DNA of 64,000 nucleotides from positions 1 to 64,000 of the forward strand of contig JAQBPX010000019.1 in assembly GCA_028287305.1 (NCBI GenBank). The letters are read 5' to 3'. This stretch comes from Gemmatimonadota bacterium. Lineage in GTDB: Bacteria; Gemmatimonadota; Gemmatimonadetes; Gemmatimonadales; Gemmatimonadaceae. Position numbers and translations under genes: made by a program. A model generated the notes under the pieces. The model was not told the DNA's origin. It saw nothing but the letters and a program-made list of their open reading frames with translations, and did not search any database. Position 1 is the stretch's first letter; every line of letters begins with the position of its first letter. Positions 1,609-18,797 of the stretch are shown here, piece after piece.

Positions 1609-2991
1609 TCAGATGATGCGCGAGAACATCGCGCGGTTGCGGCCGGCCTGCAGGTAGCGGTCGAACACCATGGCGACAGCGCGCACCAGGAACCAGCCGC
1701 TGGCCGTCACCTGGATGCCCGCCTCGTCCATCACCACCAGGCCCTGGTCCGCCAGTTCGTCCAATTGCTCGAGTTCGCCGGCGAAATAGCTCTTGAAGTC
1801 GAGCAGCCAGGCCACTTCGATCGACTCGAACAGCACCTGTCCCTGGCACATCAGCGCCATGATCACCGCGCGGCGCGCCAGGTCGTCGCGACTGAGGGCC
1901 AGGCCGCGCACCACCGGCAGCCGGCCTTGCTCGATGTGGTCGCGATACTCCTCCATCGTCTTGGCGTTCTGGCTGTAGGTCGCGCCGACGCGCCCGATGG
2001 CGGACACGCCCAGCCCGATCAGGTCGCAGTCCGGCTGCGTGCTGTAGCCCTGGAAGTTGCGGTGCAGGCGGCCCTGGCGCTTCGCCACCGACAGCGCGTC
2101 GCCGGGCAAGGCGAAGTGGTCCATGCCGATGTAGTCGTAGCCCGCATCCTCGAAGGCTGCCAGCGATTGCGACAGCATGTCCAGCTTCCCGCCGGCGCCG
2201 GGCAGCTCGATCGCGATGATGCGGCGCTGCGGCTTGAAGCGCTGGGGCAGGTGCGCGTAGCCGTACAGCGCGATCCGGTCGGGCCGCAGCTCGCGCACCT
2301 GCTCCAGCGTCCGCGCGAAGGTCAGCGCGGTCTGCCGGGGCAAGCCATAGATCAGGTCCACGTTGATGGAGTCGAACCCGACCCGGCGCGCCTCCCGCAT
2401 CAGCGCGAACACCTGTTCGGCCGGCTGGATGCGTTGCACGGCTTTCTGCACCTCGGCGTCGAAGTCCTGCACGCCGAAGCTGATGCGGTTGAAACCCAGG
2501 CCGGCCAGCACTTCCAGCCGCTTGCCATCCACCGTGCGCGGATCGACTTCGATCGATTGCTCCGCGCCGGGCGCCAGCGCGAAGCCGCGCCTGAGCATGG
2601 CCATCAGGGTCCGCAGTTCTTCATCGGACAGGAAAGTCGGCGTGCCGCCCCCCAGGTGCAATTGCGTCACGGCCTGGCCCACGCCAAGCAGCGCGGTGTG
2701 CAGGTCCACCTCGCGTGCAAGCAAGCGCAGGTAAGGGGCCGCGCGATCGTGGTGTTTGGTGATGATCTTGTTGCAGGCGCAGAAGTAGCACAGCGATTCG
2801 CAAAACGGCAGATGCACGTACAGCGACAGCGGCTGAGCCAGCGCGGCGCGGCCGGCCTTGCGCTGCGCCAGGGCCTGCGCGTAGTCGGCGGCGGTGAACG
2901 CCTCGACAAAGCGGTTGGCGGTCGGATAGGAGGTATAGCGCGGCCCCGGGATGTCGAACCGGCGCAGCAGATCGGGGGAGACGTGGGTCAT
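1609..2991 (-). CDS. hemN: oxygen-independent coproporphyrinogen III oxidase
   Basis: A 460-residue cytoplasmic radical-SAM enzyme that decarboxylates coproporphyrinogen III to protoporphyrinogen IX without O2. The cluster motif CESLCYFCACNK is at residues 64-75, with the CX3CX2C cysteines at 64, 68 and 71. The substrate-side GGGTPTFL segment and the C-terminal HemN domain follow. I chose ATG 2991 (MTHVSPDLLRRFD) over an upstream in-frame start at 3057, because that longer start would run into the FNR box. A perfect FNR palindrome at 3044-3057 is centred about 60 bp upstream, which fits anaerobic induction. Confidence 0.95.
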   Translation of the reverse strand: MTHVSPDLLRRFDIPGPRYTSYPTANRFVEAFTAADYAQALAQRKAGRAALAQPLSLYVHLPFCESLCYFCACNKIITKHHDRAAPYLRLLAREVDLHTALLGVGQAVTQLHLGGGTPTFLSDEELRTLMAMLRRGFALAPGAEQSIEVDPRTVDGKRLEVLAGLGFNRISFGVQDFDAEVQKAVQRIQPAEQVFALMREARRVGFDSINVDLIYGLPRQTALTFARTLEQVRELRPDRIALYGYAHLPQRFKPQRRIIAIELPGAGGKLDMLSQSLAAFEDAGYDYIGMDHFALPGDALSVAKRQGRLHRNFQGYSTQPDCDLIGLGVSAIGRVGATYSQNAKTMEEYRDHIEQGRLPVVRGLALSRDDLARRAVIMALMCQGQVLFESIEVAWLLDFKSYFAGELEQLDELADQGLVVMDEAGIQVTASGWFLVRAVAMVFDRYLQAGRNRAMFSRII

Positions 2992-3043: not shown

Positions 3044-3057
3044 TTGATCTGGATCAA
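3044..3057. promoter_or_regulatory. FNR/ANR box, perfect consensus, between hemN and rquA operon
   Basis: TTGAT-CTGG-ATCAA matches the FNR consensus TTGAT-N4-ATCAA at all ten conserved positions. It lies in the 122-bp gap between divergent hemN and the small-membrane-protein/rquA operon, centred 60 bp from one start and 63 bp from the other. Either or both genes could be activated from it. An FNR protein with the matching recognition residues is encoded at 6840-7622. Confidence 0.85.
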
Positions 3058-3113
3058 ACACGCGCGGTGCCGGCCGCGCCATAGTGGGCTTCCAACCCCA
3101 GGAGCCAGACACC

Positions 3114-3590
3114 ATGAATGACCTGATACTTTTCGCCCATCCCACCTTCGGGGTGCTGGGCATATTGGCCGCCGTGTGGGTGTTCGTCGAAACCCTCAAC
3201 GCCGGCGCGGACAACGCCAGGCGCATCCGCATCGCGGCGCTGGCCGTGGCGGTGTTCATGCTGCTGTCATGGGTCCTGGCCGGCTACTGGTACGTCAACT
3301 TCTATTCGCCGGACAAGGCGCTGATCCTGAAGGGTCCGTGGCCGTGGGCGCACAAGATCTTCATGGAAACCAAGGAACACCTGTTCTTCATCCCGCTCCT
3401 GCTGGCCTTCTACCTGCCGTTCGCGACGCGCGAGCGGCTGTTCGCCAACAAGGTGGCCCGCACCATGGTGCTGTCGGTGGCGGCAATGATCGCCGCGTCG
3501 GGCTTTGCCATCGAAGGCGCGGGCGCCGTCATCAACTACGGCGTCAAGGTTTCGCTTCTCCAATCCGCAACCCAAAGGACACAGCCATGA
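3114..3590 (+). CDS. unknown four-helix membrane protein, first gene of rquA operon
   Basis: I do not recognise this 158-residue protein. It has four predicted membrane helices (about 3-27, 39-60, 87-104 and 116-138) and three histidines at or near membrane faces (H9, H80, H89), with an aromatic loop GPWPWAHKIF between helices 2 and 3. That layout would allow heme or quinone contact, but nothing proves it. ATG 3114 follows a GGAG. Its stop overlaps the next gene by 4 bp (ATGA), so it is translationally coupled to the second small membrane protein and then rquA. The FNR box upstream suggests low-oxygen expression. Confidence 0.8.
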   Translation: MNDLILFAHPTFGVLGILAAVWVFVETLNAGADNARRIRIAALAVAVFMLLSWVLAGYWYVNFYSPDKALILKGPWPWAHKIFMETKEHLFFIPLLLAFYLPFATRERLFANKVARTMVLSVAAMIAASGFAIEGAGAVINYGVKVSLLQSATQRTQP

Positions 3591-3955
3591 CAACGCATGC
3601 CGCCAAGTTCGACGACGTCGCCGGGTACGCCCCGCAAACCTCGGGCAGCACGATCCTGCTCAATCCCGCCTCCTCGGCGTTCGCGCTGTCGGCCGCGATC
3701 GCAATCGTGTTCAACACGCTGCTCACCTGGGGCAAGGAAGCCTACCCGGCCCTGAATGCGTTCATGGCCTCCCTCAGCGGCCACCATTGGATCACCCATG
3801 GCCTGGCCGACGTCGCGGTGTTCATCGCGCTGGGGCTGGTGTTCATGACATTCGGGACGGCCAGCCAGATGAGCCCCAAGCAATTGGTGGCCGTGCTGGT
3901 GTCTGCGGTGTTTTCAGCGGGGCTGGGCCTCGCGGCCTGGTTTGTCCTGGGGTGA
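3587..3955 (+). CDS. unknown small membrane protein, second gene of rquA operon
   Basis: I do not recognise this 122-residue protein. A hydrophilic N-terminus of about 28 residues is followed by about three hydrophobic helices. A histidine cluster, SGHHWITHGLAD (H66, H67, H71), lies just before the second helix. It overlaps the preceding gene by 4 bp (ATGA) and rquA by 4 bp (GTGA). Tight coupling to rquA and the paired histidines suggest a membrane partner in quinone chemistry or electron transfer; this is inference only. Confidence 0.8.
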   Translation: MTTHAAKFDDVAGYAPQTSGSTILLNPASSAFALSAAIAIVFNTLLTWGKEAYPALNAFMASLSGHHWITHGLADVAVFIALGLVFMTFGTASQMSPKQLVAVLVSAVFSAGLGLAAWFVLG

Positions 3956-4644
3956 GCGCCGTCCTGCCGCTCGCGCCGGCGATTCCCCGGTACCTCGAGC
4001 AAGCTTACTGGTGGGCGTATGTGCACCCGCGCGCGGTGCGGCTGTTCGAGCGCGAGTGGCTGGTGAACCTGATCCTCTTCGGCAACTACGGACGCCTGCG
4101 CGACGCCGCGCTGGCGGAACTCGGTGAAACGGTGCCAGGCCGGACCTTGCAGGTCGCCTGCGTCTACGGCAACCTCACGCCCCGCCTGCGCCAACGGCTG
4201 GCCCCGGACGCCAGCCTGGACGTGGTGGACATCCTGCCGATCCAGCTCAAGAACCTGGCCTCGAAGATGCCCGCCGACGAGCGCGTGACCTTGCTGCGAA
4301 GCGACTCGCGCGCCCTGCCCTCTCCCGACGCGCGCTACGACCAGGTGCTGCTGTTCTTCCTGCTGCACGAGCAGCCCGAGGCGGTGCGCCGCGCGACCTT
4401 GTCCGAGGCGATGCGCGTGGTCAAGCCGGGCGGCAAGATCGTGATCGTGGACTACCACCGCCCGGTGCGGCTGCATCCGCTGCGCCCGTTGATGACGGGA
4501 GTGTTCCGCACGCTCGAACCCTATGCGATGGACCTGTGGGAACACGACATCGCCCAATACCTGCCGGCAAACGCAAGACCGTCGTCGTCCGAGAAGCGGA
4601 CCTACTACGGCGGCCTGTACCAGAAGCTGGTTCTGGTGCGCTGA
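3952..4644 (+). CDS. rquA: rhodoquinone biosynthesis protein RquA
   Basis: This 230-residue protein matches the RquA family, which converts ubiquinone to rhodoquinone, a low-potential quinone used to drive fumarate reduction. Recognisable blocks are AYWWAYVHPRAVRLFERE (18-35), the altered SAM-motif region VACVYGNLT (68-76), VVDILPIQLKN (91-101), LLFFLLHEQP (133-142) and VKPGGKIVIVDYHRP (157-171). Ordinary methyltransferases carry a glycine-rich GxGxG where this has VACVYGNL, which is an RquA hallmark. GTG 3952 overlaps the previous stop; upstream in-frame sequence is antisense-like and was excluded. The next gene, 10 bp downstream, is a dicarboxylate-type transporter. Confidence 0.9.
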   Translation: MSAVLPLAPAIPRYLEQAYWWAYVHPRAVRLFEREWLVNLILFGNYGRLRDAALAELGETVPGRTLQVACVYGNLTPRLRQRLAPDASLDVVDILPIQLKNLASKMPADERVTLLRSDSRALPSPDARYDQVLLFFLLHEQPEAVRRATLSEAMRVVKPGGKIVIVDYHRPVRLHPLRPLMTGVFRTLEPYAMDLWEHDIAQYLPANARPSSSEKRTYYGGLYQKLVLVR

Positions 4645-4654
4645 AAGGACCCTC

Positions 4655-6181
4655 ATGAGCGCCATCCTCCATCCGCCCATCCTCGAACCCATGCCGGCGC
4701 ATTCCGGCAGGGACTGGATCAAGACCCTGGCTCTGTTCGTCGCGCTGGCCGCACTGGCTGCCATCGTGCTGATGCCCAGGCCGGAAGGCTTGCCCCAAGC
4801 CGGCCAATTGATGCTGGGGATCCTCGCCTTCGCGGTGATCGTCTGGATGACCGAGGCGCTCGACTATGCGGTGAGTGCGGTGGTGATCGCCGCGCTCATG
4901 GTTTTCCTGCTCGCCTACGCGCCCGATGCGGCCAAGCCCGCGGGCGCCGACATGGGCACCGGCGCTGCGCTCACCCTCGCCTTGTCCGGCTTCTCCAACA
5001 ACGCCGTGGCCCTGGTGGCCGCGGCCTGCTTCATCGCAGCGGCAATGACCGCCACCGGGCTGGACCGCCGCATCGCGCTGTTCGTCCTCTCGAAGGTGGA
5101 TGCCCGCACCAACCACATCGTGATCGGTGCGATGGCCGTGGGCTTCCTGCTGTCGTTCATCGTCCCCAGCACCACCGCACGGGTCGCCTGCCTGGTGCCG
5201 ATCATGATCGGCTTCATCCTGGCATTCAAGGTGCAGAAGCGCAGCCGCTTCGCCGGCCTGCTGGTGATCACCGCGGCGCAGACCGCCAGCATCTGGAACA
5301 TCGGCATCAAGACCGCGGCGGCGCAGAACATGGTGGCGATGGGCTTCATCGAAAAGCAACTGCAGGCCACCATCACCTGGGCCGAATGGTTCATCGCCGG
5401 GGCGCCGTTCTCCGCCCTGACGAGTGTCGCGCTGTACTTCATCATGACCCGCATGATGAAGCCGGAAACCAAGGAGATCGTCGGTGGCCGTGACGCCATC
5501 CGCCTGCAGCGCGACGCGCTCGGCCCCATGACGGCCAGGGAATGGAAGCTGCTGGCGATCGTGCTGGTGCTGCTGGGCTTCTGGGCCACCGAGAAGGTGC
5601 TCCATGACTTCGACACCTCGTCGACCACCATCGCCGCCATCGCCCTGATGCTGTTGCCGCGGCTGGGCGTGATGGACTGGAAGGAGTCGCAAAAGGGCTT
5701 CCCGTGGGGAACCGTGGTGCTGTTCGCCATCGGCATCAGCGTCGGCACCGCGCTGCTGCGGACCAACGCGGCCGGCTGGCTCGCCAACCTGATCGTGCAG
5801 AACCTCGGGCTGCAACAGGCCAGCGCCTTCGCGATCATGATGCTGCTGTCGCTGTTCCTGGTGGTGATTCACCTGGGCTTCGCCAGCGCGACGGCCCTGG
5901 CCTCGACCATGATTCCGATCATCATCAGCGTCTTGGTCGCCGTGAAGACACCCGGCATCAACGTGGTCGGCATGACCATGCTGCTGCAGTTCGTGGTGAG
6001 TTTCGGCTTCATCCTGCCGGTGAACGCGCCGCAGAACATGATCGCTTATGGCACCGGCACATTCGATGCGCGCGACTTCATCCGCACCGGCCTGGCACTG
6101 ACGCTGGCCGCGGCGGTGCTGCTGGTGATCTTTTCGCTGACCTACTGGCCCTGGATGGGTTACATGACCCAGCCTGGTTGA
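4655..6181 (+). CDS. SLC13/DASS-family anion (dicarboxylate) transporter
   Basis: A 508-residue polytopic membrane protein of the divalent anion:sodium symporter family. It has two repeated halves, each with an SNT-like or substrate-binding hairpin; examples are SGFSNNAVALVAA in the first half, PSTTARVACLVP after it, and a late FILPVNAPQNMIAYGTG block. Family members move succinate, fumarate, malate, citrate or sulfate. ATG 4655 is 10 bp after rquA, on the same strand. With rhodoquinone production upstream, C4-dicarboxylate uptake or exchange for fumarate respiration is an attractive role, but the substrate is not readable from sequence. Confidence 0.85.
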   Translation: MSAILHPPILEPMPAHSGRDWIKTLALFVALAALAAIVLMPRPEGLPQAGQLMLGILAFAVIVWMTEALDYAVSAVVIAALMVFLLAYAPDAAKPAGADMGTGAALTLALSGFSNNAVALVAAACFIAAAMTATGLDRRIALFVLSKVDARTNHIVIGAMAVGFLLSFIVPSTTARVACLVPIMIGFILAFKVQKRSRFAGLLVITAAQTASIWNIGIKTAAAQNMVAMGFIEKQLQATITWAEWFIAGAPFSALTSVALYFIMTRMMKPETKEIVGGRDAIRLQRDALGPMTAREWKLLAIVLVLLGFWATEKVLHDFDTSSTTIAAIALMLLPRLGVMDWKESQKGFPWGTVVLFAIGISVGTALLRTNAAGWLANLIVQNLGLQQASAFAIMMLLSLFLVVIHLGFASATALASTMIPIIISVLVAVKTPGINVVGMTMLLQFVVSFGFILPVNAPQNMIAYGTGTFDARDFIRTGLALTLAAAVLLVIFSLTYWPWMGYMTQPG

Positions 6182-6194
6182 GGCAGGACGCGGT

Positions 6195-6803
6195 TCAAGT
6201 TGAAATCGGTTCGACTTCCCGCAAGCTGCGGCCCACGCCGATCGGTGCCGGCGCCGTGAGGACGATCCGGGTGAACAACCGGTCGAAGCCCGGTAGGCCG
6301 GCGCCGGCACCCAGCGGGTCGGGATCGGCGAGAAAGGCGGCGTCGAGTTCGGCCCAGTCGGCGGGCGTCAACAGCCGCTGCGCCGCGGGCAACAGCTGGA
6401 CTTCCTCGATCCGCATGTGCTCGAGGTAGAAGCTGACGTACTGGCGGGCGGCCTGCTCGAAGTCGGCGCGGCGCGATTCGCCCAGCAGCTCCCAGGCCAG
6501 CAGCAGGTGCTGCAAGGCGCGCACCTTGTGCTCGCCCTTCATGTGGTCGGCTTCCAGCGCCTGGATCACCGGCATCAATTCCGGCGCGGCGCGCACCAGC
6601 TTCGGAAACAGCAGGTCCGACTCCTTCGGGTGATGGTGCTGCTCGGGATACTCGTCGATGTAGAAGAGCATCGCGCGCAGCACGTCGAAGAACCGCTCCG
6701 GCTCGTCGGCCGGGCCCTTGTCGACCATCGCCACGAGCGAGCGGAGAACCGCGGTGATCGAGCTATGCTGGTCGCGGATGATTTGCGCTGCGCCGGTGTT
6801 CAT
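6195..6803 (-). CDS. hemerythrin-domain protein
   Basis: A 202-residue soluble protein with the hemerythrin HHE four-helix fold. Likely diiron ligands appear in order: DQHSS near the N-terminus, EQHHHPKESDLL, ADHMKGEH and LEHMRIEEVQLLP. Such proteins bind O2, NO or iron and often help repair iron-sulfur clusters or sense oxygen. I preferred ATG 6803 over the upstream TTG at 6815. It lies 37 bp upstream of the fnr stop-side region on the same strand, so it may be expressed from its own promoter ahead of nothing else in the unit. It is convergent with the DASS transporter, 13 bp apart. Confidence 0.85.
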   Translation of the reverse strand: MNTGAAQIIRDQHSSITAVLRSLVAMVDKGPADEPERFFDVLRAMLFYIDEYPEQHHHPKESDLLFPKLVRAAPELMPVIQALEADHMKGEHKVRALQHLLLAWELLGESRRADFEQAARQYVSFYLEHMRIEEVQLLPAAQRLLTPADWAELDAAFLADPDPLGAGAGLPGFDRLFTRIVLTAPAPIGVGRSLREVEPIST

Positions 6804-6839: not shown

Positions 6840-7622
6840 TCAGCGCATGCGCAATTCGAAGGAGCGCTTCAGGCCTTCGGGGTTGACGATGCGGATGTGT
6901 CGCTTGTCCACTTCCAACAGGCCCTGCAGCGCGAAGGCCGAGAAGGTGCGGCTGACGGTCTCCAGCTTCATACCCAGGTAGCTGCCGATCTCCGCGCGCG
7001 ACATGCGCAGGTGAAATTCATGGGCCGAATAGCCGCGCGCCTTCAGCCGCTGCGACAGGTTCAGCAGGAAGGCCGCCAGCCGCTCCTCGGCGTTCATGCT
7101 GCCGAGCAGCATCATCAGGCTGTGCTCGCGCACGATCTCGCGGCTCATCAGGCGAGTGACGACGTGCTGCATGTTGGCGGCGCTGCTGGACAACTCGCTC
7201 AGCAGCGAATACGGAATGGCGCAGATCTCGGTGTCTTCCAGTGCGATCGCGCTGCTGGCATAGGCGCCCTGCGCCAGGCCGTCCAGCCCCATCAACTCGC
7301 CGGCCATGTAGAAGCCGCTGACCTGGTCGCGGCCGTCGGCCAGCGTGAGGCTCGCCTTGAAGGTGCCGCTGCGCACCGCGTAGATGAAGAGGAACTTGTC
7401 GCCCTCCAGGTACAGCGCCTCACCGGCCTTGACCTTGCGGCGGGCGAACATCAGGCCGTCGAGGCTGTCGACGTCGGCCTCGGCCAGGCCACAGGGCAGG
7501 CACAGGTCGCGCAGGTGGCAGCTGGAGCAGTGCGTCTTGATGGCAATCACCGACGGGACCGGTACGGAGTAGATGGTGGTGCGGACGGAGCGGGAAGGTG
7601 CTTCGAGCATTGCGGCGTGCAT
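6840..7622 (-). CDS. fnr: FNR/ANR-type oxygen-sensing regulator
   Basis: A 260-residue Crp/Fnr protein with an oxygen-labile [4Fe-4S] centre. N-terminal cysteines at 32, 35 and 41 (HCSSCHLRDLC), with an extra Cys at 44, and the remote Cys134 (TEICAIP) match the four FNR ligands. A cAMP-like beta-roll occupies about 55-165. The helix-turn-helix SRAEIGSYLGMKLETVSRTF keeps the Glu-Ser-Arg triad that reads TTGAT half-sites. ATG 7622 is 14 bp after the receiver-only gene stop, so the two are probably co-transcribed. FNR boxes at hemN/rquA, ccoN and ccoI/uspA are its likely targets. Confidence 0.95.
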   Translation of the reverse strand: MHAAMLEAPSRSVRTTIYSVPVPSVIAIKTHCSSCHLRDLCLPCGLAEADVDSLDGLMFARRKVKAGEALYLEGDKFLFIYAVRSGTFKASLTLADGRDQVSGFYMAGELMGLDGLAQGAYASSAIALEDTEICAIPYSLLSELSSSAANMQHVVTRLMSREIVREHSLMMLLGSMNAEERLAAFLLNLSQRLKARGYSAHEFHLRMSRAEIGSYLGMKLETVSRTFSAFALQGLLEVDKRHIRIVNPEGLKRSFELRMR

Positions 7623-16366: not shown

Positions 16367-16380
16367 TTGACGAATATCAA
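16367..16380. promoter_or_regulatory. FNR box upstream of ccoN
   Basis: TTGAC-GAAT-ATCAA matches FNR consensus at 9 of 10 conserved positions. It overlaps the stop codon of ccoS (16377-16379), so the ccoNOQP unit seems to have its own promoter nested at the end of ccoS. Centre to ATG is about 63 bp, compatible with an activator at -41.5 and a leader of about 20 nt. Confidence 0.8.
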
Positions 16381-18783: not shown

Positions 18784-18797
18784 TTGACCTGGATCAA
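18784..18797. promoter_or_regulatory. FNR box between ccoI and universal stress gene
   Basis: TTGAC-CTGG-ATCAA matches FNR consensus at 9 of 10 positions. Its core and flanks resemble the site at 3044-3057 (both read GATCAAACA-like on the right). It is centred about 41 bp from the ccoI start and 65 bp from the divergent UspA-family start, so it fits best as the activator site for the rightward gene and perhaps both. Confidence 0.8.

Follow-up and report, generated by a model that had tools for sequence, protein, structure and literature searches.

A rare, conserved pair of membrane-protein genes in an FNR-boxed rquA operon also occurs in vanadium-nitrogenase operons

We analysed a stretch of DNA of 64 kb (hereafter the window), which forms the first 64 kb of a 286-kb contig. 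Within it, four packed plus-strand genes lie 3' of an FNR box: two small open reading frames (ORF1 and ORF2), rquA, and a gene for a DASS-family transporter. A first-pass annotation of this DNA had the gene set begin at 3044; it is the box that starts there, and the first gene follows at 3114. The features of the locus are these:

1609..2991, minus strand: hemN (oxygen-independent coproporphyrinogen oxidase), divergent neighbour, named from its sequence
3044..3057, no strand: FNR box TTGATCTGGATCAA, an exact palindrome, common to the divergent hemN and ORF1
3080..3085, plus strand: CATAGT, a weak candidate -10 element (4/6) at class II FNR spacing
3114..3590, plus strand: ORF1, 158 aa, four predicted transmembrane helices; invariant H9, GPWPxAH (80) and MExKEH (85-89)
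3587..3955, plus strand: ORF2, 122 aa, three predicted transmembrane helices; GHHWxxHG motif (65-72); ATGA overlap with ORF1
3952..4644, plus strand: rquA, starting with GTG and overlapping ORF2 by GTGA; encodes the enzyme of rhodoquinone synthesis (SAM-dependent amino transfer to ubiquinone)
4655..6181, plus strand: DASS-family transporter, 508 aa; 10-bp gap after rquA
6195..6803, minus strand: hemerythrin-domain protein (PF01814), convergent neighbour
6840..7586, minus strand: Fnr-type regulator, 219 bits to NF008365, just below the cut-off of 228

The palindrome of FNR-regulated promoters, TTGATNNNNATCAA, has an exact match in the window. Moreover, FNR boxes with at most one mismatch number five in the 64-kb window versus 0.49 expected, and none of 100 shuffles reached five. 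The exact box falls within the 122 bp that separate the divergent hemN (start 2991, minus strand) from ORF1 (start 3114); it could serve hemN, ORF1 or both, and its action may be confined to hemN. The centre of the box (3050.5) lies 41.5 nt 5' of the start site implied by CATAGT, a class II spacing as judged from the letters alone, and a sigma-70 scan found no full sigma-70 promoter. Around the box we found fnr, a cbb3 oxidase cluster and hemN, and the Fnr-type protein encoded at 6840..7586 is the likely regulator of the site at 3044..3057. One-mismatch boxes also lie directly 5' of ccoN (16367-16380) and between ccoI and a universal stress protein gene (18784-18797); we took these as a local FNR regulon. 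The 4-bp overlaps (ATGA and GTGA) support the earlier suggestion of coupled translation.

The window appears to be foreign to the assembly in which it was deposited. Its CcoG shares 75-83% identity with CcoG of Ramlibacter-type Burkholderiaceae and 33-36% with CcoG of the assembly's own family, and composition changes sign from the final 4-kb bin of the window to the one after it, with no Ns. From the sequence we conclude that the window, and with it the operon, belongs to a Ramlibacter-like member of the Burkholderiaceae, while the proteins of the remainder of the contig read as those of Gemmatimonadota. The contig is either chimeric or carries a foreign arm joined at about 64 kb, and is probably a chimera. 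The switch in composition at about 64 kb is sharp (window 1-64000 versus contig positions 64001-84000), and the rest of the contig resembles the assembly's other contigs. Because the window is a Burkholderiaceae segment, relatives of the assembly are not the right genomes to compare it with; the ORF1 matches among them (288 genomes of the order, 394 of the class) were rejected as chance, being rhomboid-like, phosphoethanolamine-transferase-like and kinase-like on inspection. The nearest syntenic relative keeps the order ccoG-fixH-HK-RR-fnr-HHE, and the rquA operon is absent from the syntenic place.

The product of rquA scores 307.7 bits against NF038261, for which the equivalog cut-off is 175, and is 81% identical to the nearest Burkholderiaceae RquA. 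Rhodoquinone serves as an electron carrier when oxygen is absent. RquA is both necessary and sufficient to convert ubiquinone to rhodoquinone in vitro (PMC9814641), a conversion known for the family (PMC9814641, PMC11707229), and the RquA of the window would be expected to carry it out as well. Since RquA suffices alone in vitro (PMC9814641), ORF1 and ORF2 are not needed for this chemistry, and the idea that they are membrane partners of RquA is weakened.

The transporter, aligned over its full length, scores 234.5 against TIGR00785 (cut-off 198.6) and 347 bits against PF00939, and thus falls in the same family as INDY and as CitT, TtdT and YbhI of E. coli, to which it is 27-28% identical. A grouping with sulfate carriers, which the first-pass annotation had named as counting against its proposal, was not seen at the sequence level: NadC-type INDY and chloroplast dicarboxylate transporter chains (E 1e-26 to 5e-22) are nearer than those of the sulfate carrier SLC13A1 (E about 1e-6). 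Judging by its family, the carrier probably supplies or exchanges dicarboxylates, although a similar sequence need not mean the same substrate. The carrier of the window reads PSTTA at the position of PSNTA in CitT and YbhI, which may reflect a different substrate.

We then compared the operon with other rquA loci. Across 84,980 species genomes, one scan yielded 80 of these, with flanks covered up to 6 kb; neighbour counts are lower bounds, some contigs being short. In 43 of the 80 loci, rquA has frd genes next to it, arranged either as rquA-frdABCD or as frdABCD-rquA. Such operons of Burkholderiaceae (Ramlibacter, Rhodoferax), for which an anaerobic role is expected, encode RquA proteins 55-81% identical to that of the window, which in contrast has ORF1-ORF2 and the DASS carrier in place of the frd genes. 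None of the 80 loci has ORF1, ORF2 or the DASS gene of the window next to rquA within flanks of up to 6 kb, an ORF1 homologue is absent from the 39 whole rquA-bearing genomes covered by the same search, and the 64-kb window holds no frdA. An earlier survey found rquA near respiratory genes, but near no noteworthy hypothetical genes (PMC5953543). At seven other betaproteobacterial rquA loci, a distant hemerythrin-domain gene lies about 1 kb 3' of rquA; it is 28-32% identical to the window's own, which adjoins the rquA operon.

The ORF1-ORF2 pair does exist elsewhere. An even sample of 388 Pseudomonadota held real ORF1 homologues in two genomes (54% and 37% identity), and a third carrier was found in the family of the second. 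In all three (G1121, G1351 and G1186), an ORF2 homologue lies directly 3' of ORF1: the two genes are thus adjacent and in the same order at 4/4 loci with intact copies, window included, and the three other intact pairs all lie away from rquA. As read from the sequence, the stop-start overlap of the window's pair is found in G1121 and G1351 as well. In these two genomes, the pair comes last in an operon that also holds vnfG, vnfK, a gene for a 294-aa protein without family and one for a NifX-like protein. The vnf operons that end in ORF1-ORF2 homologues are found at L180 8350-12351 and L177 1073-4716. VnfG and VnfK of G1121 pass the vanadium cut-offs; an iron-only nitrogenase was rejected for this genome, as the Fe-only cut-offs were not passed. 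Directly 3' of the pair in G1121, on the same strand, is a ZIP-like membrane gene, named by eye and with no NCBIfam match. In G1186, the pair is a stand-alone unit, and about 220 nt 5' of it is an FNR-like box with one mismatch. This box is not special, given that its 19-kb stretch has five such matches versus 0.44 expected; rquA was not found in the roughly 1.1 of 2.9 Mb of this genome that was covered.

Other searches yielded little. ORF1 had one chance match only in 401 Burkholderiaceae genomes and was absent from 60 genomes of the genus Ramlibacter; viral contigs gave no match; and the only match in the plasmid search was a decayed, truncated ORF2, without ORF1, beside an IS3-type transposase on plasmid pMTS1 of Cupriavidus sp. 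P-10 (L182 8459-9213). Homologues common without rquA had been named in advance as a sign against the link to rhodoquinone: homologues with no rquA next to them do exist, but they are very rare. ORF1 and ORF2 are a conserved, very rare and hitherto undescribed gene pair found with other partners. Because this other company includes vanadium nitrogenase genes, the pair is probably not dedicated to rhodoquinone; our verdict is that it is mobile and was captured here in the rquA operon.

Neither ORF1 nor ORF2 matched anything above a curated cut-off among the Pfam, NCBIfam and PDB families. In ORF1, 41 of 158 positions are invariant in four homologues, including H9, H80, E85, E88 and H89; in ORF2, K50, G65, H66, W68 and H71 are invariant in five, and a single decayed copy has Tyr at H67. 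His and Glu conservation is clustered at H9 and in GPWPxAH and MExKEH (joined as GPWPxAHxxxMExKEH) of ORF1, and in GHHWxxHG of ORF2; the membrane-edge histidines noticed earlier are invariant at H9, H80 and H89 (n=4) and at H66 and H71 (n=5). Hydropathy and charge predict four helices for ORF1 and three for ORF2, and suggest that the conserved loops of both proteins lie on one membrane face, the periplasmic one, a topology call that rests on few charges. Structure models made with no alignment were poor (pLDDT 62 for ORF1 and 58 for ORF2), and Foldseek with the poor ORF1 model returned nothing with E < 2.6.

Two known origins were considered for the pair and rejected. The fumarate reductase anchors FrdC and FrdD are likewise a pair of small membrane proteins, similar in size and encoded in rquA operons, but they have three helices each, versus four predicted for ORF1, and show no profile similarity to either protein; descent of ORF2 from them was dismissed, with a weak phmmer score (E 0.6 or worse versus FrdC) and an hhalign score only at control level. 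The weak phmmer score of ORF2 matches the same upstream gene in Rhodoferax rquA loci. A split COX3/CyoC (heme-copper oxidase subunit III), with ORF1 and ORF2 fused, had looked suggestive from the 4+3 helix layout and the SExMFF-like and GxHGxHV-like starts until profile tests proved negative: CyoC ranks below unrelated controls, and there was no PDB match.

Our preferred explanation, to which as a whole we assign a probability of roughly 0.4, is that the four genes form an FNR-responsive operon for low oxygen in a Ramlibacter-like betaproteobacterium, and that rquA and a DASS carrier of the dicarboxylate type are combined there with a rare membrane unit, separate from them and encoded by two genes. 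This explanation builds on the genes, box and overlaps of the locus, on the family membership of RquA and the DASS carrier, and on a conserved pair that has other partners elsewhere. As oxygen drops, RquA would turn ubiquinone into rhodoquinone, and the carrier, probably as an exchanger, would move fumarate, malate or succinate and so feed fumarate reduction. ORF1 (four helices) and ORF2 (three) may form one seven-helix membrane complex, whose conserved periplasmic-face His and Glu residues would hold heme or metal; the complex could then shuttle electrons, with the quinone pool at one end and a periplasmic partner or oxygen at the other. In this view, the pair would assist low-potential or oxygen-sensitive metabolism in general and would not be a subunit of RquA. 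It is the FNR, rquA, cbb3 and hemN neighbourhood, together with the vnf operons, that leads us to favour a low-oxygen or low-potential redox role. The specific proposal that ORF1-ORF2 is a new two-subunit membrane redox protein, binding heme or metal on its periplasmic side, supporting low-potential metabolism and common to rhodoquinone and vanadium-nitrogenase operons, is tentative and rather unlikely. A b-type cytochrome would have heme bound by His ligands; what the two sequences show is conserved histidines.

The same residues could instead be used to transport or sense metals. That the pair is a transporter, or an assembly factor, of a metal or small molecule and has no part in electron transfer is a further, rather unlikely reading: small multi-helix proteins with periplasmic His and Glu would suit it, as would the ZIP-like gene next to the pair in G1121, yet conservation lies in charged and aromatic loop motifs (GPWPxAHxxxMExKEH and GHHWxxHG) and not in polar residues within the membrane. 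Alternatively, the pair could be a small device for handling oxygen, which as a membrane oxidase or scavenger would protect oxygen-sensitive enzymes much as Anf3 is proposed to do. Anf3, a flavocytochrome oxidase encoded 3' of anfHDGK, is a proposed shield of Fe-only nitrogenase (PMC6579470), and the place of the pair at the end of the vnf operons of G1121 and G1351 resembles that of Anf3 after anfHDGK-anf1-anf2 (PMC6579470); low-oxygen control in the window is also consistent with such a device. The likeness, however, is one of position only: Anf3 is soluble, is a heme/FAD protein of the PNPOx type and is unrelated in sequence to both ORF1 and ORF2, and the pair has no oxidase signature and no profile similarity to CyoC or a subunit III-like protein. 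We consider an oxygen-handling device unlikely.

The first-pass annotation had instead proposed a self-contained rhodoquinone/fumarate module, with ORF1 and ORF2 as RquA partners or rhodoquinone-specific carriers. The genes do overlap in one operon, and the linkage of rquA to frd in other genomes makes fumarate coupling of RquA itself plausible. Nonetheless, the pair and this DASS gene are missing beside rquA at all 80 other loci (flanks of up to 6 kb), the 39 rquA genomes lack ORF1 by the same search, the window lacks frdA, the other intact pairs are not beside rquA, and RquA alone is sufficient in vitro (PMC9814641). We therefore regard the module as improbable, and the earlier reading as a whole as partly supported: the FNR box, RquA, the DASS carrier, the two membrane proteins outside known families, their histidines and the coupling were all supported, and the self-contained module was not.

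What the operon offers is an undescribed membrane pair joined to rquA, with the same pair in vanadium-nitrogenase operons. Should the pair act in redox chemistry or in the handling of oxygen, it would supply a missing piece of how bacteria exploit low-potential electrons close to the boundary between oxic and anoxic conditions.
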